This document shows, piece by piece, positions 22,821-62,262 of a stretch of DNA of 64,000 nucleotides. Positions within the stretch are counted from its first letter, which is position 1; the number at the start of each line of letters is the position of its first letter. Both the position numbers and the translations under genes were made by a program. Source of the stretch: Gammaproteobacteria bacterium. GTDB lineage: Bacteria > Pseudomonadota > Gammaproteobacteria > Burkholderiales > Burkholderiaceae_C. The stretch is taken from contig JAHJWB010000014.1 of assembly GCA_018828125.1 (NCBI GenBank), positions 62,001-126,000 on the forward strand, written 5' to 3'. The notes under the pieces are model-generated. The model did no database searches. It was not told where the DNA came from and was given only the letters and a program-made list of their open reading frames with translations.

Positions 22821-22938
22821 CGAGACCGGGGGAAGAGAAAGCGCACTGCCGGTGTTGCCAATCGCCTGGGCGACGCGGCGCCACAGGGTAAGACCCTAGA
22901 ATCTGCGCGTTGGCCCCGGAGTGTTTTCGGGGCCGATT

Positions 22939-23104
22939 GCGTTCTCAGGGCGGGGCGAAACTCCCCACCGGCGGTATCCGCGGACTGAAGAGAAAGGTCT
23001 GCGGGAGCCCGCGAGCGCCTGTGGAGAAGTTTTTGCTCCGCAGGGTCAGCAGATCTGGTGCGATGCCAGAGCCGACGGTCACAGTCCGGATGAAAGAGAT
23101 CGCG
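22939..23104 (+). promoter_or_regulatory. FMN riboswitch (RFN element)
   Basis: All conserved parts of the RFN element are present in order: the AGGGCGGGG and CTCCCCACCGGCGGTA box at 22946-22976, a GAGCCCGCGAGCG block at about 23005-23017, GGTCAGCAGATCTGGTG with GCCAGAGCCGACGGTCA, and the closing GTCCGGATGAAAGAGA. The ends GCGTTCTC and GAGATCGC can form the P1 stem. It senses FMN and represses flavin-synthesis genes. The gene downstream is a lumazine synthase, ribH-type. No strong terminator was found directly after it; a T8 run at 23251-23258 lies further on. Confidence 0.95.
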
Positions 23105-23109
23105 AAGCC

Positions 23110-23858: not shown

Positions 23859-24286
23859 CGTGCTGGGGGGGGGCGGAGCGGCTAAAAAACGCTTCTGGCA
23901 TTGTTGCTGCGTACTTGCCGAATTTGCAGCGCTGCCTGCGACGCAGCGCCTAGCCAGAACCGCGTTGCTGCGTTTTGTCGCGACGCTCAATGCGGCAGAG
24001 CCGCCGTATGAACTGCTATTTTTTATATGGCAGCTAGAGCTTTGCCATCAAGCGCTAGAGGTCATTTTGAATTGTATTCTGGCGCTCGACATCTGCCGCT
24101 ATCCGTTCGGGCTGAGCCCGTCGACGCTTGGTTGCTTTTTGCGAACAATCCATCAACAGGCCCAGTGTGAACGGCCGGTGTGAGGCCGGTGATATGCAGG
24201 CAATTTCGCTCGGAAGCAACGTGAAGCCTGGATGCTCACCACTCTGCACTGCGCCCCGTGACCGGCGCGCAGGACAGTGCCGTCCA
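23859..24286. other. Intergenic stretch without a recognised gene
   Basis: 428 bases between ribH and the chemoreceptor gene. It holds repeat copy 4; I saw no other signal of a gene or RNA. The ORF spanning 23860-24183 has no recognisable similarity and unconvincing composition. Confidence 0.5.
24014..24073 (+). repeat. Hairpin repeat family A, copy 4
   Basis: Partly degenerate left arm (CAGCTAGAGCTTTGCC) with intact right arm CAAGCGCTAGAGGTCATTTTGAATTG. Confidence 0.75.
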
Positions 24287-27573: not shown

Positions 27574-27583
27574 GGGCTTTGAA

Positions 27584-27645
27584 ACTATTAAATTGATAGC
27601 TGCTTGCGCTTGTCCACCAAGCGCTAACGGTCTAAAACACTTGAA
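27584..27645 (+). repeat. Hairpin repeat family A, copy 5
   Basis: TTAAATTGATAGCTGCTTGC with a right arm CAAGCGCTAACGG and a degenerate tail; lies just upstream of the CoA-transferase start. Confidence 0.8.
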
Positions 27646-27667
27646 ATGCGCGTGTGAGAGCCCCGCA

Positions 27668-27785
27668 TGCACTCCCTCTCCCCTCGCGGGAGAGGGTTGG
27701 GGAGAGGGGGTGACTTGGCACAACGTATGCGCCGCTGCCCCCTCTCCCCCGGCCCCTCTCCCGCGAGGGGAGAGGGGAGGGGGGA
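27668..27785. repeat. C/T-rich palindromic repeats (CTCTCCC-CGCGGGAGAGGG type)
   Basis: Inverted-repeat units: CCCTCTCCCCTCGCGGGAGA at 27670-27690 followed by a GGGTTGGGGAGAGGGGG tail, and a second cluster at about 27742-27785 with CCCCTCTCCC and GCGAGGGGAGAGGGGAGG. Such units occur in many proteobacterial genomes as intergenic palindromes. They lie between the CoA-transferase and dehydrogenase genes and may form stable RNA hairpins. Confidence 0.8.
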
Positions 27786-47220: not shown

Positions 47221-48357
47221 TCAACGTCCTGCAGCGGCAGTCGCCAGGGCCGACAGGGTTTCGTCCAGGCGCGGCAGCTCGGCGGCCTTCATGCTGGCTT
47301 GCGCCGTTTGCAGCGTGGTGGCAGCGATTTGGGTGCGGCGCGATGCCGGGTCAAAGTATTTGTTCAAGGCGGCCGTGGCGGCGGCCAGATCGGCGCGGGC
47401 GGATTCATATTGGCGTGCCAGCACGCCCAGACGTGCATTGAGCAGCTTGAGCTTGAGGTTCTCGCGCAAGAAGAAGGTTTGCTCAGGCGCCAGCAAAATC
47501 GCTTCGGGCTGGTCTACGCGGCTCACACGCACGAGGCCGCGGGCTTCGTCGCGTACTACCTCCCAGCTGCGTTGCAGGGCTGCCTGCCACCATGCCAGAT
47601 CGCCCTGGTTCAGCGGCGGCGTGGTTTGGGGTGTGGGGGCTGCTGCCAGGCGGCGGGTGGCGGCGGCCTGGGCCACGGCGTTCAGCACCGGCAGGTCGTC
47701 TACCTGGCGTACCAGTTCGTCCAGCCGGGCCAGCAGGCCCGCGGTGTCGGTCACGGCGGCGCGTGTCAATCGGTCCAGATCGCGGCCGATGGCGCGTTGC
47801 ACGGGGGTCAGGCGGGGCTGCGCGGCACGTTCGATGCGCTGGTCGGCGCTTTTGAGTGCGGCCACCAGCGGGTCCAGGCTGCCGGTCAACTGGGTTTGTT
47901 GCTGCGCCAGGCGGATGGCTGATTCAATGTCGACCACCAGGTTTTCATCGCGCGAACGCGACAGGCTCTGCATGAGCTCTTCTAATTGGCTGCGCTGCAG
48001 GGCCACCTCGCTGACCCGGGCTTCTGCCACCGACAGGCGCGCCGCGGTTTCGCGCACCAGTTCTTCAGCCTGGCGGGCCATGGTGCGGGCCTCGATGGCC
48101 AGCGCGCCCGAGTCGGCCGACTGGCGAGCCAGTTGTTCTTGAATCGAACTGAGTTTTTGCCACAGCAGGCCACTGCTGGCCAGGGCGGCGATGGCCACTG
48201 CCGTCAACAGCACCGTGACCACACCACTGCGCCGATGGGCGGGGCTTGTCGGTGCCACAGGTGCGGCCTGCGGCGACGGGGTGCGCGATGGCGCAGGCGA
48301 TGGCGCGGGTGCGGCAGGTGTCGCGGTAGGCAAGTCGTTGGGGGGCACGGAACTCAT
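47221..48357 (-). CDS. hemX: HemX-like protein (uroporphyrinogen-III methyltransferase-like)
   Basis: A 378-aa protein with a Pro/Ala-rich N-terminus (about 1-40), one membrane helix (about 43-65), a coiled coil (about 70-140) and a HemX-family domain. ATG 48357 overlaps the hemD stop by four bases. Although often annotated as a methyltransferase, family members lack a clear SAM motif, and none is visible here; a scaffold role in haem synthesis is more plausible. Confidence 0.9.
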   Translation of the reverse strand: MSSVPPNDLPTATPAAPAPSPAPSRTPSPQAAPVAPTSPAHRRSGVVTVLLTAVAIAALASSGLLWQKLSSIQEQLARQSADSGALAIEARTMARQAEELVRETAARLSVAEARVSEVALQRSQLEELMQSLSRSRDENLVVDIESAIRLAQQQTQLTGSLDPLVAALKSADQRIERAAQPRLTPVQRAIGRDLDRLTRAAVTDTAGLLARLDELVRQVDDLPVLNAVAQAAATRRLAAAPTPQTTPPLNQGDLAWWQAALQRSWEVVRDEARGLVRVSRVDQPEAILLAPEQTFFLRENLKLKLLNARLGVLARQYESARADLAAATAALNKYFDPASRRTQIAATTLQTAQASMKAAELPRLDETLSALATAAAGR

Positions 48358-49160
48358 GCGGCCGATTCTATCGAGGCCACCACGTCTTCCAGTGCCGGGC
48401 GGCATTCCCGCACGCTGCCAAAGCCCGCTGCACGTGCCGCTTGTGCGATGCGCGGATGGGTGGCCAGGGCCTGGGCTGCGCTCCAGTCCACCGTGGGCAG
48501 CGCCTGCCCCAGGTGGGCCACGGCCTCCGAGCTGCTCAGCAGCCAGACCGATCCATCATGGGCGGCCTGTTGCGCTAGCGCCACCTCGGCGTCCGTGAGT
48601 CGCGGTGCGCCGCGTTGGTAGGCCACCACAAACTCCACTTGCCCGCCTGCGGCTTCTATCTGCCGGGCCAGCCAGTCCCGGCCGGAGCCTTGGGAGGCCT
48701 CATGCACCCCGTACGAGCGACCACGCACAATCAGCACACGGTCGCCGGGCCTGATTTGTGCGCACACCTGTTGCCACAGTGCTTCGGAGTCGAATTGCGC
48801 TGCATCGATCGCAGGCCCGTCGATGCGGTCTGGCGGCACGCCTGCCTGCTGGAGCGCGCGCGCCGTGCCCGGTCCGGGTGACCATGCTCTTAAATTTATA
48901 GCTTCTAGCGCTTTTCCATCAAGCGCTAGAGGCCAATTTGAATCAAAAAAATACACCACGGCATTGCCGCTCACAAACATCAGGGCGCGGTATTGATCCA
49001 GGTGCTTGCGTGCCCGTGCCAACGCCCGCTGCGCGGTGGGGTCTGTGTGGGGGCCAATGGCAATCAGCGGCAGCGCGGCGGCGTCGATGCCGTGCTGGCC
49101 CAGCTGTTGTACCCAGTGCGCGGCCTCGCGGGCGGGCCGCGTGACGATCACCCGGGGCAT
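48354..49160 (-). CDS. hemD: Uroporphyrinogen-III synthase, with an in-frame repeat
   Basis: A 268-aa HemD, which closes hydroxymethylbilane to uroporphyrinogen III. Recognisable parts are the N-terminal VIVTRPAREA, the SGNAVVYFF segment, RAWSPGPGTARALQQAG and the C-terminal WLLSSSEAV and HPRIAQAARAAGF. Residues about 73-91 are encoded by repeat copy 9, in frame, where homologues have an ordinary surface linker; the reading frame stays intact. The start is ATG 49160, 11 bases after hemC. Overlaps hemX by four bases. Confidence 0.92.
   Translation of the reverse strand: MPRVIVTRPAREAAHWVQQLGQHGIDAAALPLIAIGPHTDPTAQRALARARKHLDQYRALMFVSGNAVVYFFDSNWPLALDGKALEAINLRAWSPGPGTARALQQAGVPPDRIDGPAIDAAQFDSEALWQQVCAQIRPGDRVLIVRGRSYGVHEASQGSGRDWLARQIEAAGGQVEFVVAYQRGAPRLTDAEVALAQQAAHDGSVWLLSSSEAVAHLGQALPTVDWSAAQALATHPRIAQAARAAGFGSVRECRPALEDVVASIESAA
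48891..48944 (+). repeat. Hairpin repeat family A, copy 9, inside hemD
   Basis: ATAGCTTCTAGCGCTTTTCC and CAAGCGCTAGAGGCCAATTT: a complete copy within the hemD coding region. On the coding strand it reads SNWPLALDGKALEAINL without a stop. Confidence 0.92.
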
Positions 49161-62145: not shown

Positions 62146-62201
62146 TGCCATGCCACCGTCGCGCGGTGTGGTCTGCGGCTGGCCCCACTGCACAAAATAT
62201 T

Positions 62202-62252
62202 GTGTCAAATTGGCCTCTAGCGCTTATCCATTAAGCGCTGGTAGCTATTAAA
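62202..62252 (-). repeat. Hairpin repeat family A, copy 12 (reverse)
   Basis: AAATTGGCCTCTAGCGCTTA then ATTAAGCGCTGGTAGCTATT, in reverse orientation, ending ten bases before the dxs ATG. It therefore forms most of the ispA-dxs spacer and the 5' side of the dxs ribosome site. Confidence 0.92.
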
Positions 62253-62262
62253 AGAATAGTAA

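Follow-up and report, generated by a model that had tools for sequence, protein, structure and literature searches.

A hairpin repeat translated within hemD of Comamonadaceae appears to remain coupled to the repeat family of its host genome

Introduction

Palindromic repeats translated as part of a protein have been described in Rickettsia, where the Rickettsia palindromic elements (RPEs) are dispersed, lie in frame within functional protein genes and are tolerated as peptides (PMC10969869, PMC3733652). The RPEs are about 150 bp long, and in R. conorii nearly half of them are inside open reading frames (PMC10969869). Some REPs are also reported inside open reading frames, with DnaE2 among the hosts (PMC3733652), and the BRE repeats of the Comamonadaceae and other bacteria have some copies within coding sequences (PMC3110155). 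Table 7 of PMC5217627 gives for Acidovorax ebreus the motif GCTTAT(N)5AAGCG, unexplained there, with 114 copies (107 intergenic, 5 in genes), and for Polaromonas naphthalenivorans the spaced motif ATAGCT(N)22CAAAAG.

In the window analysed here (the whole stretch of DNA under study, 64,000 nucleotides), a hairpin repeat is read through by hemD. Like an RPE, it is a palindromic repeat translated in frame in a conserved protein gene whose insert-less homologues are shorter, although 20 of the 49 hemD genes that score z < 3 against the element consensus have the commonest insert loop length. Compared by description only, it is unlike the RPEs in being about 65 bp long, in occupying one coding site across genera and in its apparent sequence coupling to a genomic pool. 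With the REPs it has in common a short palindrome (9-bp stem), a high copy number (at least 150) and a mostly extragenic location, the last resting on the motif counts of PMC5217627, but by eye neither GTAG nor CGTC stands at the foot of its stem, where the consensus is TCAAATTGGCCTCTAGCGCTT...AAGCGCTAGCAGCTAT. The BREs (75-91 bp, 69% G+C in Bordetella) are set apart from it (about 65 bp, 37% G+C) by their published description. The A. ebreus motif is the core of the hemD repeat family, present as GCTTAT-CCATT-AAGCG in the copy at 62193-62262, and we infer that the P. naphthalenivorans motif belongs to the same family. The motif section of PMC5217627 contains neither hemD nor translation nor a cross-species analysis, and among the papers listed by our literature search for the repeat family or the hemD insert only this motif came up, with no account of the insert or of its coupling. 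A first-pass annotation of this DNA had called a repeat-derived peptide in an essential haem enzyme unusual, a judgement that needs qualifying, as the RPEs and the REPs found in open frames are published cases of palindromic repeats lying in frame within functional genes. What was known, then, is the in-frame palindromic repeat and the core motif of this family; what is new is the coupling of the hemD copy to the genomic family.

Results

The element lies at 48884-48948 on the minus strand (62.6 bits, E 1e-18 against the repeat profile), covers codons 71-92 of hemD with its last base inside codon 93, and has a G+C content of 37% in a gene of 67%. All nine pairs of its stem are formed, between a 5' arm at 48921-48929 (plus-strand CTAGCGCTT read as complement; AAGCGCTAG on the plus strand) and a 3' arm at 48905-48913, assigned by pairing and RNA folding; the seven-base loop occupies 48914-48920, and the TAA that many family members have at the 3' edge of the loop would terminate hemD. 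As RNA the hemD copy folds better than its shuffles (z -2.95). The tail, which encodes A87 to A92 (48885-48903, minus strand), reads AGCTATAAATTTAAGAGCA here and most commonly AGCTATCAAAACAAGAGCA in relatives (38 same-genus copies aligned), and the family consensus from 30 genome copies, weaker positions included, is AAAATTTGAGTCAAATTGGCCTCTAGCGCTTATCCAATAAGCGCTAGCAGCTATCAAATTAGTAGTA. By eye the tail also has a second, small inverted repeat (GCTAT..ATAGC); hemD disrupts it where the sequence codes for Arg, so it does not account for the conservation of the tail described below. No terminal inverted repeat of the MITE type, apart from the central hairpin, was seen by eye in the aligned copies.

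Within the window the 22-base core at 48907-48928 has eight matches with three or fewer mismatches, itself included, against a mean of 0.00 in 100 shuffles, and a profile trained on 30 copies from the genome, the hemD copy among them, finds 12 repeat copies. A covariance model built from these 12 gives at least 150 repeats in the genome, all 150 scored candidates having E <= 0.1. A chance match of the hemD segment is excluded by the shuffle counts and the profile score, and the first-pass assignment of the segment to a dispersed repeat family is upheld. That annotation had bounded the repeat at 48891-48944, with a residue range that fits those 54 bases; the full element is longer, and the part left outside, codons 91-92 (AGAGCA), proved the most informative.

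Only the hemD copy lies in a nameable gene of the window; the copies at 27581 and 59430 fall in long open frames whose appearance by eye is that of an upstream region and of spurious frames. When the nine non-hemD copies between 9452 and 62262 were compared with five relatives, a repeat was found at the same place and in the same orientation in 26 of 31 comparable cases, which marks the family as long established and stable in position. Rfam 15 returned only an FMN riboswitch and a tRNA at gathering score in the window, and no family for the repeat; the riboswitch (22937-23105, 99.9 bits) precedes the repeat copy at 24011 by about 900 bases. An imperfect inverted repeat of the CCCTCTCCCCTCGCGGGAGAGGG type with 37-base arms occupies 27674-27776, near the repeat copy at 27581-27649 and, by eye, upstream of an apparent CoA-transferase gene. 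Elsewhere in this genome, an error-prone DNA polymerase gene apparently contains a copy translated in the opposite sense (L294 3-1514; G000:C21:183300-185400), giving a peptide around DLIALSACLSSARGQFD; the gene scores 571.6 bits against NF004225, the cut-off of 939 being for the whole protein. In genome G034 an in-frame copy lies ahead of a prmC domain (L292, G034:C12:242000-243500; TIGR03534 from open-frame residue 79) and may precede the true start.

The window's genome also has a RAYT-like Y1 transposase gene (G000:C22:47884-48168; NF047646 74.6 bits, cut-off 80). At least one such gene was found in 34 of the 36 same-genus genomes searched, and a repeat copy (E below 1e-8) lay within the fetched 3.2-3.3 kb at the RAYT-like gene in 4 of 11 genomes, where window density predicts 0.6 per 3.3 kb. 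A link between RAYT and the repeat family is not supported, such genes being present in the repeat-poor genomes G002, G005 and G031 as well.

The host gene, hemD, encodes uroporphyrinogen-III synthase (48354-49160, minus strand; 268 amino acids plus stop). Its product matches Pfam PF02602 (HEM4) at 90.1 bits, and the repeat is translated in it without stop or frame change, as stated earlier; no NCBIfam HemD model reached its cut-off for this gene. The predicted structure resembles solved HemD structures (4es6, E 1.9e-16), and in it the insert, which reads FFDSNWPLALDGKALEAINLRA in the hemD frame, bridges a helix (residues 65-72) and a strand (91-93). Mean pLDDT is 61 for residues 71-80 and 57 for residues 81-90, and at least 90 for most other blocks, the remaining low ones being 111-130 (84, 80) and 151-160 (55). 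In such folds the active sites are formed by strand-to-helix loops, from which the helix-to-strand loops are usually at a distance. Apart from the insert HemD is predicted to be intact, and the position modelled for the insert fits a tolerated loop; the loop placement proposed earlier is borne out in that the segment is variable and outside the well-predicted fold. Among 210 listed repeats from 15 genomes, 126 can be read in the hemD frame without a stop and 84 would stop the gene. At the far end of hemD, beside the hemX start, codons 263-265 (TCG ATA GAA, window 48366-48374) are each uniform, in 44, 44 and 43 common-residue rows among 44 insert-bearing hemD, the rare ATA included; this stretch includes TAGAAT adjoining the overlapping hemX start and may be an internal promoter or a coupling signal.

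We searched 148 genomes, the window's own included, and found hemD in 134. Of 47 genomes of the same genus, three had no match and one a broken or partial gene, and 39 of the 43 complete hemD have the insert or its presumed remains, the other four having a short loop. Against the element consensus, 36 of 42 different same-genus rows score z >= 5 (L024 2.8, the recoded L041 0.8), and the 132 different hemD genes of the whole set divide into 76 with z >= 5, seven with z 3-5 and 49 below. The short loops are of the LHGAPPLPAG type and come from four species that form a single clade nested in the genus, which marks the short loop as a loss of the insert; the two short-loop genomes scanned with the model have two repeats each. 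Genome G006 has two hemD in opposite orientation on one 132-kb contig (G006:C195), probably an assembly artefact of a metagenome genome.

Among the best 80 of 401 named-genome matches, from a scan that favours genes resembling the query, the insert is found at the same hemD site in Diaphorobacter, Alicycliphilus, Comamonas, Simplicispira, Paracidovorax, Curvibacter, Hylemonella, Rhodoferax and Polaromonas. A fused AIKTRAW form, with the common loop length and the 12 bases AAAACAAGAGCA, is present in 25 of 38 same-genus and 7 of 31 other-genus rows, the latter including Curvibacter, Hylemonella and Rhodoferax, and near forms of the 12 bases occur in Simplicispira, Paracidovorax, Alicycliphilus and Diaphorobacter. 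Two Polaromonas groups (L055/L170 and L187/L191/L196) and L061 have the element plus an extra linker before the next strand. A recent insertion private to this genome is excluded by the same-site copies within the genus and beyond it, and the insert is, as judged from this distribution, old and in frame since long before the present species split. The first-pass annotation had taken the insert to show how such elements move, a view that its presence in several genera and the positional conservation of the other window copies do not support. It had also considered coincidence, which is not supported: repeat-less homologues have shorter loops, or loops of the same length and other sequence.

The hemD copy and the genomic repeats were together present or absent in 109 of 116 genomes: both in 63, neither in 46, repeats only in 6 and the hemD copy only in 1 (Fisher p 2e-24). 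Repeats were scored by a strict pattern or by the model, varying by subset (short-loop G039 and G042 by strict pattern only), and the model, made from this genome's copies, misses diverged ones, as in two Rhodoferax genomes with 5 and 2 by model versus 49 and 36 by pattern. G088, a further genus-level genome with four repeats and no hemD match, was left out of the count. In its least biased part, in which each of 41 other genera with hemD is represented by a single genome, 10 have both, 28 neither, 3 repeats only and 0 the hemD copy only (p 2.6e-7). Fifteen lower-scoring other-genus hemD all fall below z 3, and one of their genomes, G055, has four repeats. Many of the 46 genomes with neither may never have had either, and phylogenetic control of the co-occurrence is weak: independent pairs on supported branches (101 genomes) gave a mean of 2.6 for and 0 against, of 4, which is not significant and of low power. 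Within the genus, the genomes that are repeat-poor by model are G002 (1 repeat), G005 (2) and G031 (2), and the hemD copy is lost or recoded in all three. The idea that the tail is kept even in repeat-less genomes is excluded, the model finding 143 repeats in G008, 139 in G023 and 46 in G029, of 150 scored in each.

The hairpin core of the hemD copy follows the repeat variant of its own host genome. Repeats of other genera are variants of their own but keep the same frame, GCCTCTAGC-21 bases-AGCTAT; in G077 the 21 bases are CGGCGTATTTATTG in hemD and CGGCGTATTTATTGCCTAA in the listed repeats, and the hemD cores GCATA..TACGC in G085 and CCATGT..TGCTCAA in G081 fit their own variants as well. 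Over 15 genomes, the hemD core scored a mean of 17.0 bits against its own pool (the repeats listed first for each genome, up to 15) and 1.9 (sd 3.1) when permuted (p 5e-5). The own pool ranked first in 7 genomes and first or second in 12, the worst ranks being 6th (G048), 5th (G026) and 4th (G086). Related genomes have common variants, so that the influence of descent is not wholly removed from this test; with 10 less related genomes kept, it gave 18.9 versus 2.4 bits (p 5e-5). Stem pairing exceeds that under synonymous reshuffling both within the genus (5.97 of 9 versus 3.65; p <= 0.05 in 19/37 rows) and in other genera (5.06 versus 3.51; 12/32 rows), and p <= 0.05 is reached in 0 of 37 rows with z < 2. 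Covariation among 38 same-genus copies is modest, its score being reached by 17 of 500 shuffles and its count of pairs with both partners changed by 344 of 500. Across 39 genomes, rho was 0.68 for the core, 0.57 for the stem pairs and 0.20, not significant, for the tail, a correlation that reflects co-divergence and not repeat number because the strict pattern misses diverged copies.

The last bases of the element, AAGAGCA, encode the conserved Arg-Ala that precedes Trp93. Of 35 different same-genus genes with the insert, 34 have AGA at Arg91, a codon supplied by the repeat (48888-48890, minus strand); among the other Arg codons of these genes AGA accounts for 6 of 681. Mean synonymous homozygosity over codons 87 and 89-92 is 0.90 in the genus, whereas 0.48 is expected from same-residue columns for codons 87, 90, 91 and 92 (p 5e-5), the value for Thr resting on 4 columns and Lys being without any counterpart. 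Rows for this test were not chosen by z; the family-wide run used z >= 5. AGAGCA ends 0 of 28 scored copies of this genome, where the repeat end is variable, so that replacement from other copies is not by itself enough to account for the tail, and its pattern points to an additional constraint at the nucleotide level and favours some nucleotide-level selection. In the recoded insert of G002, 12 of the 19 tail positions match. Codon 91 of the 49 genes with z < 3 is CGN in 32, AGA in 4 and AGG in 7, counts that are partly circular by z class because the z scores include the tail. AGG, a single step from AGA, is rare at the other Arg codons of same-genus hemD (13 of 681), and at codon 91 it may be a relic of AGA.

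In the window's genome (G000) and its sister G006, the insert ends AAATTTAAGAGCA. Repeat-like ATTT in the tail is confined to these 2 of 69 aligned rows (0/67 others); Lys89 is AAA in 35 of 36 other same-genus rows, and ATTT stands at the tail in 8 of 28 scored genome copies, 4 of the 8 having AATTT by hand count. The window's hemD copy agrees with its sister's at 55 of 58 bases, with any other hemD at no more than 46, and at 50 with a non-orthologous repeat from its own genome. Identity to the best genomic match is about 86-90%, and in so large a repeat pool some close match is partly to be expected. With 29 genome copies as a fixed reference, G000 has a best match of 49 and a mean of 43.7 of 58 bases and G006 48 and 44.2, whereas the hemD copies of 11 other species have best matches of 39-49 and means of 33-42. 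One of these, L021, equals the window's copy with a best match of 49; the mean separates the window lineage from other species and the best match does not.

Discussion

We propose that a hairpin element of about 65 bp inserted in frame in an early Comamonadaceae ancestor, in the HemD loop between helix 65-72 and strand 91-93, where it would have been tolerated and where its end came to encode the conserved Arg-Ala. The hemD copy may not have been simply domesticated. It could still belong to its repeat family, with other copies replacing its core by a process like gene conversion and so returning it to the variant current in the host, and with HemD acting as a filter that would pass replacements free of stops and retaining Arg91. 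Where a lineage loses the family, the hemD copy would be deleted or recoded to ordinary GC-rich codons. We give slightly better than an even chance to this reading of the insert as an old in-frame insertion that is still part of its family, homogenised by conversion and filtered by HemD. The reverse relation, in which the hemD copy would act as master for the family, is disfavoured by the listed repeats that would stop hemD and by the absence of AGAGCA from the scored genome copies.

The element could instead be held in place from outside. A DNA- or RNA-binding factor acting in trans may use the elements genome-wide, with the hemD copy as one working site at which selection keeps core and tail; loss of the factor would let all sites decay, hemD included. 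The synonymous conservation of the tail, the joint occurrence of hemD copy and family, the stable positions of the other window copies and the excess of stem pairing all agree with such a factor, but several hemD copies have a disrupted hairpin (L014 retains 1 of 9 pairs in a genome, G020, with at least 90 repeats) and the tail end varies in other genomic copies. We regard this as a tentative possibility, well short of even. A version in which the specificity of the putative factor drifts between genera and drags the coding sequence of the enzyme with it seems a little less probable again; if true, the core would be rewritten to the local variant, the tail codons frozen, and all lost with the system. 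Conversion is favoured over a trans-acting reader, on grounds of similarity rather than of a tract traced to a named donor.

Several independent insertions at one hot spot, each drawn in a different clade from the pool of its day and then left to ordinary decay, would account for clade-specific cores, and the two Polaromonas groups and L061, with an extra linker unlike the fused AIKTRAW, may be separate events. The fused form, however, with its common loop length and AAAACAAGAGCA, runs through rows of the same and other genera, and its AGAGCA end is rare in this genome's pool, which makes recurrent insertion doubtful as a general account. An ordinary neutral insertion into a tolerated loop, inherited vertically and decaying, is consistent with the low-confidence loop of the model, the many decayed cores and the varied loop lengths; we consider it very improbable in view of the near-uniform AGA, the homozygosity of about 0.9 and the match of the core to its own pool.

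Beyond what the first-pass annotation described, the analysis adds the coupling to genomic repeats and the synonymous-site conservation, and the frozen rare codons give a specific, testable prediction. In hemD, one coding copy of a repeat can be traced across a bacterial family beside its genomic relatives, which lets one ask whether short dispersed bacterial repeats evolve in concert, how they do so, and how far this goes in rewriting an essential protein.
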